A DNA stretch of 64,000 nucleotides from NCBI RefSeq assembly GCF_023093535.1, contig NZ_CP095757.1, positions 1,860,001-1,924,000 of the forward strand, written 5' to 3'. This document shows positions 28,799 through 35,131 of the stretch, piece after piece. Position 1 is the stretch's first letter. Each line of letters starts with the position of its first letter. The notes under the pieces are model-generated. The model saw only the letters and a program-made list of their open reading frames with translations, did no database searches and was not told the DNA's origin. Source of the DNA: Halovivax limisalsi. GTDB lineage: Archaea > Halobacteriota > Halobacteria > Halobacteriales > Natrialbaceae. Position numbers and translations under genes: made by a program.

Positions 28799-29893
28799 TC
28801 AATCGTCGTCGGCCACCGCGTTCGGCGTCCGGGGACCGACGGCTGCGAGGTCGTCGACGAAGGCCGCCAGTTTGTCCCGCGTCACGTGGGGCATACAGAC
28901 GACCCGGAGTTCGCCCGACGCGGTCCGTGAAATCCGCCACCCTTCGTCGCGAAGCCCTTCGAACGTGTTCGCGGGGACGTCCGCGGCGACGAGCGGCAGC
29001 GTCGGGTCGACGACGTCGTAGCCCAGGTCGGACAGCCGGGCGGCGAGCCACTCGGCGTTTTCCTGCGAGCGCTCGTACTGCGCAGCGTACCCGTCAGGCC
29101 AGAGGGTTTCGATCGCCGCGACGGCGCTGGCCACGCCGGCACCCGATCGGGTACCCGAAAGCGTCGCCTGCGAGGTCGTCTCCAGGTACGGCGTGTCGAC
29201 GGCGAGTTCGTCGAGTAACGAGTCATCGCGGACGAGCAACCCGCCCGCCGGGATCGCGGCCCGGCCCATCTTGTGCGGGTCGATCGTCATCGAGTCGACC
29301 GGCGCGTGGCCGAAGTGCCACTCGCGGTCGGTGAACGGGAGCACGAAGCCGCCCCAGGCCGCGTCGACGTGGAAGAGCGCCCCGTAGTCGTGCGCAATCG
29401 CCCCGAGCGCCGGAATCGGATCCACTCGTCCGTACTCGGTGCTGCCGGCGACGCCGACGACGAGCGCGGTCTCCTCGTCCACCGCGTCGCGGACGGCGTC
29501 GAGGCGCACCCGATGGCCCGCGTCCGTCGGGACGACCGTCAGCGAGACGTCGAGCAAGTCGGCGGCCTTCCGGAAGCTGAAGTGTGCCGACTCGGGCAGC
29601 ACGACGGTCGGCGAATCGATACCGCGAGCTCTCGCTCGCTCGCGGGCGATCCGGACCGCCTGGATGTTCGCCTCGGTCCCGCCGCTGGCGACGTACCCGG
29701 ACGGATCGTCGAGCGACGCGAGTTCGCCGAGCAATTCGACGGCTCGATCTTCGAGGTCGGCGACGGTCGGGTACGTCCCGGGATCGCCGGGATTCGTCGC
29801 GAGAAAGCGCTCGGCCGCGTCCCGGGCGGACGGATGCGGCTCCGTGCACATCGAGGACAGCACCCGGTCGAACCCCTCGGGCTCGGCCTGCAT
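28799..29893 (-). CDS. mfnA: L-tyrosine/L-aspartate decarboxylase MfnA
   Basis: PLP-dependent group II decarboxylase with 364 residues. The cofactor Lys is Lys208 in TIDPHKMG, and HVDAAWGGF holds the PLP-ring contact. In methanogens MfnA makes tyramine for methanofuran. Haloarchaea lack methanofuran, so the aspartate activity giving beta-alanine for coenzyme A is the likelier role here; this is an inference. The start at ATG 29893 is used because the long upstream frame extension overlaps the promoter of the divergent regulator gene. Confidence 0.88.
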
Positions 29894-30059
29894 ACGTCGG
29901 CGAAGGTGAGTGACGGCTTTATCTGTTGTGTTCTGCCGTACGCGCGTCGGAACAGTATTCTGGCTCGCTGGAACGGTAGTTCGCGTATCCTGGGGAGGTA
30001 CATCTAATACACTACCAACGCAGTCAACATTTACTACAGTCGCCCACCTAGGCTCGGGT

Positions 30060-30425
30060 ATGGTCATCGATATCGAGACGTTCGAAGAAACGCCCGAACC
30101 GGAACTGGGTGAGTTGAGCAACCCCGAGAAGGTGCTGCAGTTCCTCCTCTCGAACGACGACAAGGCGTTCAAGGCCGCGGAGATTGCCGAGGGAACCGGG
30201 ATCAACCCGAATTCGATCGCGACGGTTCTCGGTCGACTCGAAGACCGTGGGCTCGTCCGTCACAAAGCCGACTACTGGGCGATCGGCGATCCCGAACGCA
30301 TCGAATCGTTCGGCCGGTACCGTCGCGTCACCGAACGGTTGAACGAACGGTACGGAGCCGAGGATCCCGCTGCGTGGCGTGAACACGCGGCCGAAGAGAC
30401 CGCCGCCGACGATCGAGACGAATGA
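30060..30425 (+). CDS. MarR-type winged-helix protein, probable antitoxin
   Basis: A 121-residue protein with a winged-helix domain (residues about 20-80: [39 protein letters not shown]) and an acidic C-terminal tail. Its stop overlaps the start of the PemK-like gene (ATGA at 30422), the usual antitoxin-toxin coupling, so it probably neutralises that toxin and represses the pair. Its frame is intact although the toxin carries a premature stop. Confidence 0.8.
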
Positions 30426-30766
30426 GCCGGAAACGGACGGACGTGGTGTACGGAGCGGATCCGTTCAAAGGGGACCACTACTCTCGACCGTGGTGCATCA
30501 TCAACAACCTCCGACATCCGTTCGATGGAGAGCAGTACGTCGTCGGTCCGCTGACGACGAAACGCTGGTACGACGGCTTCGTTCCTATTCCAGCGGACGC
30601 CTGGATAACCGGTGGGACACCGGAACCGAGTAACATCGTTCCGTGAAGCGTTCACACGTTGGACGAGGACGACATCGAATTTTGGCAGGAAACACTCGAT
30701 TCCGAACTCGTCGAAACGACGGTTTCGACGCTGGTCTCGTACCTCGAATCGCCGGTCGAGCGCTGA
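30422..30766 (+). pseudogene. PemK/MazF-type toxin with an in-frame TGA
   Basis: The first 74 codons encode a PemK/MazF-like fold (VVYGADPFKGDHYSRPWCII, then YVVGPLTTKRW). The frame then meets TGA at 30644-30646, yet continues in the same frame for 39 more codons (SVHTLDEDDIEFW, LVETTVSTLVSYLE) to a second TGA at 30764-30766. The expected residue at the first stop is Trp (TGG), in a PWSVHT context like that of related proteins. This is best read as a recent nonsense mutation in a gene of about 114 residues. PemK/MazF toxins are mRNA endonucleases; the truncated form probably lacks activity. Confidence 0.75.
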
Positions 30767-30864
30767 CGCTCGAACGGAAATCCCGGATCGATTTCGAAGG
30801 TATACCCGGATCGAACGGGACGACGGCCCCTGACCGTGTCTAATAGCGATCCTCGGACTCCCGA

Positions 30865-33204
30865 TTATCGCACCGAATCCAGCAACAGCTTCTGCTCGAC
30901 GCGCTTGACCTCGTGTTGAACGTCGCGGACGGCGTCGATGTTCGCCGAGATGGAACTGATCCCCTCGTTGACGAGGAACCGGACCATCTCGGGTTTCGAG
31001 CCGGCCTGGCCGCAGATCGAGGTGTCGACGCCGTGTTCCCGACAGGTCTCGATGACGTCGCCGATCAGGCGCAGCACAGACGGGTGGAGTTCGTCGAAGC
31101 GGTCGGCGACGTGCTCGTTGTTCCGGTCGACCGCGAGGGTGTACTGCGTGAGGTCGTTCGTCCCGAACGAGGCGAAGTCGATGCCGGCCTCGGCCATCGA
31201 CTCGACGCCGAGCGCGGAGGCGGGCGTCTCGATCATCACGCCCCAGGTCTGCTTCTCGGGGTCGATCCCGGCCTCTTTCATCAGTTGCTTCGTCCGGTAG
31301 ACGTCTTCGGCGTCGTTGACCAGCGGGAGCATGATCTCGACGTTGTCGTAGCCCAGCTCGAAGAGCCGGCGGAACGCCTCGAGTTCGTGGGCGAAGACGT
31401 CCGGACGGTCGAGGCTGCGGCGGATGCCGCGGTAGCCGAGCATCGGGTTGTGCTCCGCGGGTTCGTCCTCGCCGCCCTCGAGCTCCCGGAACTCGTCGGT
31501 GGGCGCGTCGAGCGTGCGGACGCGGACGGGCCGCGGGTAGAACTCGTCGGCGACGCCGCGGATCCCCTCGACGAGTTCCTCGACGTAGGCGTCGACGCCC
31601 TCGTCCGCGATGAACTTCGCCGGGGTCTTGTTCAGCGAGAGGATCATGTGTTCGGTCCGCAGGAGGCCCACGCCGTCGGCGCCCGTCGCGGCCGCGCGCT
31701 CTGCGGCCTCGGGGATGGAGACGTTGACCTTGACCTCGGTCGCGGTCATGGGTTTGACCGGCGACTGCGGGCGGACGTCCTCGACGGGTTCGTGTTCCGC
31801 CTCCGCCTCGACTTCCGCCCCGGCCAGGACCTGGCCCTTCTCGCCGTCGAGGGTGACCTGACGACCGTCGTCGAGGACGGACGTGGCGTTGGTCGTCCCG
31901 ACGATCGCGGGGACGCCGAGTTCGCGCGAGACGATGGCGGCGTGACTCGTCATGCCGCCCTCGTCGGTGACGATGCCCGCCGCGCGCTTCATCGCGGGCA
32001 CCATGTCTGGCGTGGTCATCTCGGTAACGATGATATCACCTTCGCGCACCTTGTCGAGGTCGTCGAGCTTGGTGATCAACCGGGCGGGGCCGGAGACACG
32101 ACCCGGGCTCGATCCCAGGCCGTCGACCAGCAGGTCGCCGTCGGCCGCGGCGTCCTCGATCGGCGCGCCGGACTCGGGGTCGACGCTCTCGACGCTGCCG
32201 CTGCCGTCGGTGATGCCCTTCGCGGCCGCCTCGGTCTCGGCCGCGTCGGTGATGCCCTCGTCGTCGATCGTCGTGATCGGCCGGGACTGCAGCATGAAGT
32301 CCTCGCCGTCGGCCATCGCCCACTCGACGTCCTGGGGCGTCTCGTAGTGGGCCTCGACGTGCTCGCCCAGTTCGACGAGCCGGTCGAGTTCGGCGTCCGA
32401 AAGCACGCGCGCCTCGCGTTTCTCGGGCTCGACCTCGACTTCGACCGTCTCGCCGGTCTCGGGATCTTTCTCGTGTTTGACCTTCTTGTCGGCGACGGTG
32501 ACGTCGACGTCGCGGGTGTCGCGGTCGATCACGTAGTTGTCGGGCGAGACGGCGCCCGAGACGACGGCCTCGCCGAGTCCCCAGGCGGCCTCGACGATCA
32601 TCGTCGGGTCGCCGGTCGAGGGGTGGCTGGTGAACATGACGCCGGACTTCTCGGCGTCGACCATCTGCTGGACGACGACCGCGATGTTGACCACGGAGTG
32701 GTCGAAACCCTGCTCCTGGCGGTAGTAGATCGCCCGCTGGGTGAACAGCGACGCCCAGCACCGGCGAACCCGGTTCAGCAGGTCCTCGCCGGTGACGTTG
32801 AGGAACGTCTCCTGCTGGCCCGCGAAGGAGGCGTCCGGCAGGTCCTCGGCGGTCGCCGAGGAGCGAACGGCGACGAAGGCCTCGTCCTCGCCCCCGACGT
32901 CGTCGTACGCGCGCAGGATCTCCTCGCGGAGCTCGTCCGGAAACGGCGTCTCCTCGATGAGCTCCTGGGCGCGGTCCGCGGCGTCGGCCAGCGCCGCGGA
33001 GTCTTCGACGTCGACGTCGACGGCGTCGAACAGTTCTTCGTCGATGCCTGCGTCCTCGATGAACGCGCGATAGGTGGAAGCGGTGACGACGAAGCCAGGC
33101 GGGACCGGCAAGCCTGCCCCCGTGAGTTCTCCCAGGGACGCGCCTTTGCCGCCGACGGACTCGACGTCGCCGGCGCCGATCTCGTCCAGCCAGAGTACAG
33201 CCAT
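30865..33204 (-). CDS. ppsA: Phosphoenolpyruvate synthase
   Basis: Makes phosphoenolpyruvate from pyruvate and ATP for gluconeogenesis. The 779-residue protein starts at ATG 33204. The N-terminal ATP-grasp domain begins GGKGASLGEL, the swivelling phosphohistidine domain carries GGMTSHAAIVS with the phosphorylated His421, and the C-terminal TIM barrel has MIETPASAL, SFGTNDLTQY and SICGQAGS. A Lys/Glu-rich insertion (about residues 245-265) and an acidic linker before the swivel domain are typical of haloarchaeal versions. Intact. Confidence 0.96.
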   Translation of the reverse strand: MAVLWLDEIGAGDVESVGGKGASLGELTGAGLPVPPGFVVTASTYRAFIEDAGIDEELFDAVDVDVEDSAALADAADRAQELIEETPFPDELREEILRAYDDVGGEDEAFVAVRSSATAEDLPDASFAGQQETFLNVTGEDLLNRVRRCWASLFTQRAIYYRQEQGFDHSVVNIAVVVQQMVDAEKSGVMFTSHPSTGDPTMIVEAAWGLGEAVVSGAVSPDNYVIDRDTRDVDVTVADKKVKHEKDPETGETVEVEVEPEKREARVLSDAELDRLVELGEHVEAHYETPQDVEWAMADGEDFMLQSRPITTIDDEGITDAAETEAAAKGITDGSGSVESVDPESGAPIEDAAADGDLLVDGLGSSPGRVSGPARLITKLDDLDKVREGDIIVTEMTTPDMVPAMKRAAGIVTDEGGMTSHAAIVSRELGVPAIVGTTNATSVLDDGRQVTLDGEKGQVLAGAEVEAEAEHEPVEDVRPQSPVKPMTATEVKVNVSIPEAAERAAATGADGVGLLRTEHMILSLNKTPAKFIADEGVDAYVEELVEGIRGVADEFYPRPVRVRTLDAPTDEFRELEGGEDEPAEHNPMLGYRGIRRSLDRPDVFAHELEAFRRLFELGYDNVEIMLPLVNDAEDVYRTKQLMKEAGIDPEKQTWGVMIETPASALGVESMAEAGIDFASFGTNDLTQYTLAVDRNNEHVADRFDELHPSVLRLIGDVIETCREHGVDTSICGQAGSKPEMVRFLVNEGISSISANIDAVRDVQHEVKRVEQKLLLDSVR

Positions 33205-33411
33205 CTGTATCTGTGGTGTGGACGGTGCGAATAAAGAAGCTTCCGAAGCCTCCGGTCGTCCGCGACCGAAAGCGGGGTTTGAGCCCCTAGCGCCCGGCAA
33301 TACTTGCGACGCCGAAAGTCCGCGAGTACGCTCCGTTACGCACAGGTTCCCACCGCGCCTCCGATCGGCCGGGATCGGTAGCGATAACCGGACCGGCGAC
33401 GTGCGGCGACT

Positions 33412-33765
33412 ATGGACGAGTCGGCCGACTTTCAGGGAACGACGATCGGCGTCGGGACCCTTCTGGTCGTGGCAGTTCTCGCATACGGAACGTTCATCTC
33501 TCCGTCCGTCGCCGGATACGAACCGCTGACGCTCGCCGGCTGGATCTTCGCGCTCACGCTCGCAGCGGTCGCGATCCTCCACGCGTCGGTAACGCAGTAC
33601 GACCTGGCGGGCGGCTTCGGCGGCGTCGCCGTCGGCTGGCTGTTCGTCCTTTCGGGGTCCGGCGCGCAGGTGCTCGTCGGCCTCGCCGTCCTCCTCGTCT
33701 CCGGCGGCTACGTCGTCCTCGTGACGCGACGACGGAGTCGGGACGCCCAATCCGGGACGACGTGA
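33412..33765 (+). CDS. Small membrane protein, four spans
   Basis: A 117-residue hydrophobic protein with four membrane segments (about residues 13-29, 41-60, 66-80 and 83-103) and a basic C-terminus (TRRRSRD). Function is unknown. It is divergent from ppsA and convergent with the HMG-CoA reductase gene. Confidence 0.65.
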   Translation: MDESADFQGTTIGVGTLLVVAVLAYGTFISPSVAGYEPLTLAGWIFALTLAAVAILHASVTQYDLAGGFGGVAVGWLFVLSGSGAQVLVGLAVLLVSGGYVVLVTRRRSRDAQSGTT

Positions 33766-33901
33766 GAACCGTTCACTCTCGGTCGGGAAGTCGGTCGAAC
33801 CCCTTACCCGCCCCGTCGCTCGCCCGCATTTCTCCTCCTGACTGATCGCTCCCGTCCACTGATCGACCCACCCAACCAACCGCTCCCGTCGACTGACGAT
33901 C

Positions 33902-35131
33902 CTACCGACCGAGATCTTCGTGCGCGCTCGCGAGGTGGCGCGAGGAGAGCGCCGCCAGCAGGGAGAGCTCGCCGGCGAGGGCTCCGACGGCGATGACCTC
34001 GGCCAGTTCGTCGGCGTTCGACCCTGCCGGGTCTCCGCCGCCGCGGACGCCGAGTACGTCGAGCGCTTCGGCCTGGGTCGGCAGTTTCGTGCCGCCGCCG
34101 ACGGTGCCGACCGGGAGCGACGCGAGCGAGATGCTGGCGTAGAGGTCCGCGGATCCGTCGACGCCGTTCTCGCGGGTCTCCATCGTGGTGATGGCGTTCG
34201 AGCCCTCGACGACGTGAGCCTCGTCCTGGCCGGTCGCTAGGAACGCGGCGGCGACGACGTTCGCCGCGTGCGCGTTGAACCCGAGACTGCCGGCCTTCGC
34301 GCTCCCGACGAGGTTCTTTCGCGTGTTGGCTTCCACGATGCCGGCCGCGGTCGTCCCCAGGCGGTCTTCGACCACGTCGCCGGGGATCACGACGTCTGCC
34401 GTCACGGATCGACCGCGACCCTCAACCGCGTTGATTGCCGCGGGCTTCTTATCGGAACAGAGGTTTCCGGAGACGGCGACGAGCGAGGCCGGCGTTTCGG
34501 CCTCGACGACGTCGCAAGCCGCGCCCGTCGCGATCGTGGCCATGTTCATCCCCATCGCGTCCTTCGTGTCGTAGGCGAATCGCAGGTAGACCGAGTCGCC
34601 GACGACGTAGGGCTCGATCCCGAGCAGTTCGCCGTGGCTGGTCGTCGACTCGGCGGCCTCGCGGAGACGGTCCTCGTGCTCGCCCACCCACTCGACGACC
34701 TCGGCGGCCTCGACGACGCCCGAGACGCGAAAGACCGGGGCGCGCGTCATGCCGTTCTTCGTGACGCGAGCGCTCGCTCCGCCCGCCGTCCGCAGGACCG
34801 AGAGCCCGCGATTGACGGAGGCGACGAGCGCGCCTTCGGTCGTCGCGAGCGGGAGGTGGTACTCGCCGTCGGCCGCGCCGCCGTCGACGGGGACCGGTCC
34901 CGCAACGCCCATCGGCAGTTGCGCCCCGCCGACGAGGTTCTCGATCGCCGTCTCGGCCGCTTCGGCCGGGAAGGCGTAGTCGCCGATCGCCGCCAGGTCG
35001 GCGCCGGTCTCGGCCGCGACGAACCGCCTTCGGGCCGTCGCGGCCGTCTCGGCGTCGGCGTGGGCCTCGAGTTCGTGCAATCGCAACTCGCCGTCGCGAA
35101 CGCGCTGTGCGAGGGTCTCGGGGTCGGTCAT
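33902..35131 (-). CDS. hmgA: 3-hydroxy-3-methylglutaryl-CoA reductase
   Basis: Committed enzyme of the mevalonate pathway, supplying isoprenoids for archaeal lipids. The product has 409 residues and no membrane domain. Class I motifs are present: the catalytic Glu region TTEGALVASVNRG, DAMGMNMAT, the catalytic Lys in SDKKPAAIN, the NADPH region GTVGGGTKLPTQ, and the catalytic His in SSRHLASAH at the C-terminus. Mevinolin resistance markers of haloarchaea derive from this gene family. Confidence 0.96.
   Translation of the reverse strand: MTDPETLAQRVRDGELRLHELEAHADAETAATARRRFVAAETGADLAAIGDYAFPAEAAETAIENLVGGAQLPMGVAGPVPVDGGAADGEYHLPLATTEGALVASVNRGLSVLRTAGGASARVTKNGMTRAPVFRVSGVVEAAEVVEWVGEHEDRLREAAESTTSHGELLGIEPYVVGDSVYLRFAYDTKDAMGMNMATIATGAACDVVEAETPASLVAVSGNLCSDKKPAAINAVEGRGRSVTADVVIPGDVVEDRLGTTAAGIVEANTRKNLVGSAKAGSLGFNAHAANVVAAAFLATGQDEAHVVEGSNAITTMETRENGVDGSADLYASISLASLPVGTVGGGTKLPTQAEALDVLGVRGGGDPAGSNADELAEVIAVGALAGELSLLAALSSRHLASAHEDLGR

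Follow-up and report, generated by a model that had tools for sequence, protein, structure and literature searches.

A two-gene module of the toxin-antitoxin type is present in the window, that is, in the whole stretch of 64,000 nucleotides analysed here, and its toxin gene has very probably been knocked out in recent times by a nonsense mutation at Trp75, as one case of a process extending across the haloarchaea. The window belongs to the assembly of Halovivax limisalsi, which consists of one contig of 3.89 Mb. A preliminary description of this DNA had offered two explanations, recent inactivation by mutation with the partner gene left intact, or a stop codon that is read through; the former is favoured by our comparisons, as the codon specifies Trp elsewhere, the sequence beyond it is constrained and similar lesions occur in many relatives.

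The gene pair and its internal stop codon

The first gene of the pair (30060-30425, plus strand) is an intact open frame for a 121-amino-acid winged-helix, MarR-like protein, the presumed antitoxin and regulator. Its stop codon overlaps the start of the toxin gene by four nucleotides (ATGA, 30422-30425, plus strand), and an overlap of 4 nt is also seen in the NCBI annotation of the pair carried by Halobacterium salinarum pHSAL2. Starting with the ATG at 30422, the toxin frame (30422-30766, plus strand) stays open for 74 codons (30422-30643); an in-frame TGA (30644-30646) then takes the place of the conserved Trp75 codon and is followed by a tail (30647-30766) homologous to the toxin C-terminus, made up of 39 sense codons (30647-30763) and the next stop of the frame (30764-30766), which under the normal code is untranslated. 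Thus the TGA with an intact tail beyond it, next to an open partner frame, was found just as first described. In the region 28799-34000 the pair lies between two genes which we take to be decarboxylase-like and phosphoenolpyruvate-synthase-like, each on the minus strand.

The frame is homologous along its length, down to its end, to a large haloarchaeal family, in which the expected residue at the TGA could be read. In a first alignment the codon was TGG in 33 out of 33 other homologous loci (L002 to L034), and in a larger set of 88 distinct intact copies the column held W in 86 and H in two; no homologue among these 33 loci and 88 copies ended at this residue. The earlier supposition that a Trp codon had stood here was borne out in this way, and a natural end of the protein at that position, which would have told against it, was not seen in the copies compared. 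When two intact congeneric copies (genomes G001 and G003) were used as reference, the toxin gene displayed dN/dS values of 0.10-0.14 before the stop and 0.34-0.36 after it, while the partner gene showed a value of 0.06 against intact congeners. The TGG codon of the relatives, the alignment of the tail with its homologues right to the C-terminal end and the dN/dS of the tail together argue that the open tail is gene sequence and not a product of chance. Old decay of the tail was considered as well, its dN/dS exceeding that of the front, and was rejected, since the tail is less constrained between intact relatives too; the window toxin therefore bears no sign of it. If a 74-amino-acid fragment is made, it would lack the C-terminal third and would most likely be inactive.

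Four congeners carry the flanks of the pair in unchanged order. At this locus the pair is intact in G001 and G003, a one-base deletion frameshifts the toxin in G004, and G002 has no match to either gene, its homologous flanks lying ~50 bases apart. Within the H. limisalsi genome itself the toxin profile matched six places: the window copy, the loci L002 and L003 to L005, and a weak partial match at 3459444-3459695. The toxins of L003 to L005 are paralogues open at full length, while that of L002 (near 1283055-1283371 of the contig) is split by a frameshift near residue 30, its partner being open; this second damaged copy, like the family-wide pattern of lesions described below, lay outside the view of the preliminary description. 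A stop flagged in the partner of L004 was read as a normal gene end, since the residues that follow it lead into the start of the toxin. As a separate observation, the open paralogous pair formed by L197 and L003 (3796768-3797689 of the contig) has a 106-nt tRNA gene nearby, by eye an intron-bearing CAT tRNA, which is a possible integration site.

We consider it very improbable that the 74-amino-acid product is functional in itself and kept by selection, for example by binding the partner or an intact paralogue. The intact toxin gene start and partner, together with the three open full-length paralogues of the same genome, would suit such a role, but the dN/dS of front and tail are both well below 1, and the stops found in relatives fall anywhere from column 2 to column 89 of the toxin alignment, so that no common fragment length is kept.

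Those stops are TGA, TAG or TAA and interrupt several different codons, which makes read-through or recoding of the window's TGA scarcely credible, whether Trp, selenocysteine or some other residue were inserted to complete the full-length toxin. Recoding would be in keeping with the purifying selection on the open tail and with the single stop held by each of 21 distinct full-length nonsense copies, a biased sample since regions flagged for stops were fetched (copies not full-length in one frame were excluded from this set of 21 nonsense and 88 intact ones). Against it, no tRNA-Sec exceeded the gathering score in the genome (best 40.6 versus 47, at a place where ARAGORN calls a tRNA-Arg) and no SelB exceeded the curated cut-off (best 175.7 versus 242.25). 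A UCA anticodon was absent from the 40 tRNAs read by ARAGORN, the 41st being by eye an intron-bearing CAT tRNA, in a list that is incomplete since tRNA-Trp is not among the 41. No Rfam match was obtained within 29900-31000, and the fold 3' of the stop was little better than those of shuffled sequences (z = -1.14); among the marks of selenoprotein synthesis or UGA recoding looked for in the genome and near the site, namely tRNA-Sec, SelB and a SECIS element, none was found at the thresholds applied. Moreover, of 38 long ORFs chosen mechanically from the window, 19 terminate in TGA. The read-through stop put forward earlier was consequently abandoned, and we continue with the TGA as a nonsense mutation.

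Toxin family and type of module

The toxin gene is PemK/MazF-like by an assignment made at the level of the family, and its fold and a capacity to cleave RNA would be those known for that family. The Pfam model PF02452 (PemK_toxin) matched 9 of 19 aligned relatives at E ≤ 0.001, with a best value of 1.4e-7, and 15 of the 19 at the looser E ≤ 10; the window protein, alone or read through, matched no Pfam model and none in NCBIfam. The name PemK-type used in the preliminary description is therefore appropriate for the family with which the sequence is shared, but not for the window protein by its own matches, the window copy differing from PF02452 members in having no match of its own and in the interruption at Trp75.

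Further searches gave results of varying strength. With PHROGs the window toxin showed a weak match (E = 0.0077) to a MazF-like growth inhibitor, and the NCBI name "type II toxin-antitoxin system PemK/MazF family toxin" was carried by 28 of the 60 plasmid relatives listed from 66 matched records. A profile search of PDB sequences returned 14 matches, none significant (best E = 0.063), 12 of which were MazF, EndoA or YdcE chains. Two AlphaFold2 runs on the toxin were both poor, with mean pLDDT of 51.1 and 49.4. No toxin relatives were found in the phage records and viral contigs searched; PADLOC gave no match for the toxin and only weak ones, of helix-turn-helix type, for the partner, and a first scan of the genome contigs with the window protein as query returned no matches.

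Regarding the partner, its 19 Pfam matches were all below cut-off and comprised winged-helix and other helix-turn-helix domains only, the best being MarR_2 (1.9e-5); no AbrB/MazE type was among them. The usual partner in MazEF and PemIK modules is an antitoxin of AbrB/MazE type. The window module resembles those systems in being a small two-gene operon with overlapping genes and the partner first, and differs from them in its winged-helix partner; since this partner has no AbrB/MazE match, the pair was not classed as MazEF or PemIK. Its layout is that of a type II toxin-antitoxin system, with two small, adjacent, co-oriented and overlapping genes that travel together. A partner homologue was present in the stretch at all toxin loci of one fetched set except L049/L088, which are one place fetched twice, and at 74 of the 80 toxin loci of named species described below; the two genes are also missing together from the congener G002.

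Lesions in toxin and partner genes across haloarchaea

The toxin profile matched in 304 of 391 haloarchaeal genomes. An internal stop was found in 16 of the best 150 toxin copies listed from these 391 genomes, 13 of them in Trp columns and one each in Gln, Ser and Arg columns, and in none of the best 150 partner copies listed from a genome draw of the same size under the same settings (Fisher p = 2e-5; the rows of the test are not fully independent, and both sides are the best 150 matches listed). Neither of these lists was selected for lesions, and the same is true of a set of 80 named loci from GTDB genomes, which were classified by script. In the latter both genes were intact in 45 loci, only the toxin was broken in 15, only the partner in one and both in seven, a number that counts L109 and L111 separately although their toxin and partner translations are identical. 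The remaining 12 were left out: five with a replaced tail end, one with a short N-terminus beside an intact partner, and six in whose stretch no partner was found, one of these lying at a contig edge. The excess of loci broken in the toxin only over those broken in the partner only (15 versus 1) had an exact p value of 0.0005, and seven of the eight classified loci with a broken partner had a broken toxin too. These lesions and their asymmetry were observed directly in the genomes.

When stops alone were counted, 16 of the 80 named toxins and 5 of the 74 partners were affected (the latter in L127, L132, L152, L154 and L156), thus the partner is not immune to lesions; as the scan of named loci was seeded by toxin peptides, and not by the partner, toxins broken in both peptides could be missed. 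Stops were present, among others, in Halorubrum yunnanense (L129), Halobellus salinus (L130), Natrialba asiatica (L133) and Natrinema thermotolerans (L142), frameshifts in loci including L158 to L160 and L162, and truncations in loci including L155, L157, L165 and L166. In the first homologue listing the flagged stops include normal gene ends, for example those of L012, L014 and L021.

These numbers bear on the possibility that the window's TGA is an assembly base error at 30646. One base separates TGA from the Trp codon of the relatives, so that a single wrong call would suffice, but stops in 16 of the 150 listed toxins against none of the 150 listed partners render this improbable; even if the window call were wrong, the same comparison would mark the family pattern as biological.

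A further explanation is that a mobile gene is undergoing ordinary neutral decay, which would be uninformative on toxicity. The relatives of the toxin occur in many genera, on chromosomes as well as on plasmids, and its gene tree mixes families, both as would be expected for mobile genes, and the partner decays too, as seen in the five stop-bearing named loci. We nevertheless regard this explanation as rather unlikely, given that the adjoining partner, of similar length, had no internal stop in its 150 listed copies and was broken alone in one of the 68 classified named loci, compared with 15 for the toxin. In a PIN-family control stops occurred in one row, G025, among the matches listed, although this control is weak because many of the matches are probably not toxins.

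Several loci depart from the one-sided pattern. In Natrinema mahii H13 (L127) the toxin is intact and the partner match is missing positions 1 to 39 and contains an internal stop, while in L145, on a plasmid of Haladaptatus halobius, a toxin frame with a shortened start, named as PemK/MazF family by NCBI, has no partner in the stretch. Both genes are broken in L015, where a stop-bearing toxin accompanies a frameshifted partner, and in L065 a stop-bearing toxin lies beside a shortened partner. At L049/L088 (contig C3 of genome G138, 117987-120204) the toxin bears a stop and the nearest partner homologue is ~1.6 kb upstream, as if an insertion had come between the two genes.

Age, spread and meaning of the lesions

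To place the lesions on a tree we used a quick method, which left many weak forks; on this tree at least 19 changes between intact and broken are needed for 21 broken copies, and those broken copies that group together carry differing lesions. Compared with the nearest intact copy, pN/pS was 0.132 for the 15 usable nonsense copies, namely those for which a relative of 80 to 99.9% identity existed; 63 intact copies handled in the same way gave 0.163. The lesions thus look young, since so many changes are required on the tree and the stop-bearing copies keep the pN/pS of intact ones; both the scatter and these signs of youth are direct observations. The stop-bearing copy of Natribaculum luteum, for instance, has 99.4% DNA identity to the intact copy of N. 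breve. Loci broken more than once also exist (L154, L156, L160 and L161) and are presumably older.

A special preference of the stops for Trp codons was considered and did not reach significance: Trp holds 16 of the 20 stops taken as transition-type (p = 0.13), a number in which L167 (nearest relative CAG, stop TAA) was included though more than one transition away, as were two stops in Arg columns (nearest codons CGT and CGG) that are not one transition away. On average Trp provides 9.07 of the 13.84 one-step transition routes to a stop per gene, and this share is enough to dispense with any special mechanism for the excess at Trp.

Single inactivating hits, whether nonsense, frameshift or truncation, strike the toxin gene in separate lineages and usually spare the partner. 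Under the mechanism that we propose, loss of the antitoxin first would leave an unopposed toxin, lethal or costly to the cell, and would be purged; loss of the toxin first would be tolerated. One-sided lesions would be expected on these grounds, since the partner, if it is the antitoxin, could not be lost first without leaving the toxin unopposed. The 15 loci broken in the toxin only, against one in the partner only, are consistent with the partner being the presumed antitoxin and with its neutralising the toxin, although this action, the toxicity and the order of loss are suggested by sequence patterns.

More tentatively, and with considerable doubt, the toxin could be in a standing cycle of loss, in which single-base knock-outs are recurrently favoured, null copies are kept young through replacement by transfer or through loss, and the antitoxin is the gene of lasting benefit. 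Knock-outs would be favoured perhaps because an antitoxin alone guards against homologous toxins of plasmids (anti-addiction), or perhaps because cells that are toxin-null gain an advantage during growth or isolation. If such a cycle were true, the sequenced genomes would amount to a natural knock-out screen by which toxin and antitoxin can be distinguished.

Decay of toxins with surviving antitoxins is already known in bacteria. PMC7167474 describes toxin-antitoxin systems of E. coli that decay by deletion or nonsense mutations, PMC2654758 names hok-sok copies that are inactivated and a degenerating ccdO157, together with the anti-addiction model, and orphan antitoxins are abundant in Klebsiella according to PMC7192599. 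The haloarchaeal case is like the bacterial chromosomal ones in the loss of the toxin with survival of the antitoxin; it differs in that one archaeal family is hit in many separate, mostly single-hit lineages and was counted against its own partner gene, and it is the frequency and the asymmetry that are notable here. At the level of titles and abstract openings, we found no report in the literature on decay of the haloarchaeal PemK-like family.

The broken gene of the window is in itself ordinary. What the family offers is natural genetic evidence, obtained without bench work, on how the roles of toxin and antidote are assigned within an archaeal pair, and the rate of one-sided lesions can be counted in any suspected toxin-antitoxin family. 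For annotation these results are also a warning, as roughly a tenth of the family copies listed (those 16 of 150) are not intact toxin genes.

Two other features were observed among the loci. The plasmids holding L109 (Halostella pelagica, 316071 bases) and L111 (Salinibaculum litoreum, 316107 bases) share a broken toxin and a shortened partner, and may be near-identical. Finally, the four Halorubrum loci L136, L141, L144 and L149 have in common a replaced C-terminal end of the toxin, possibly an old insertion that has turned into a new tail.
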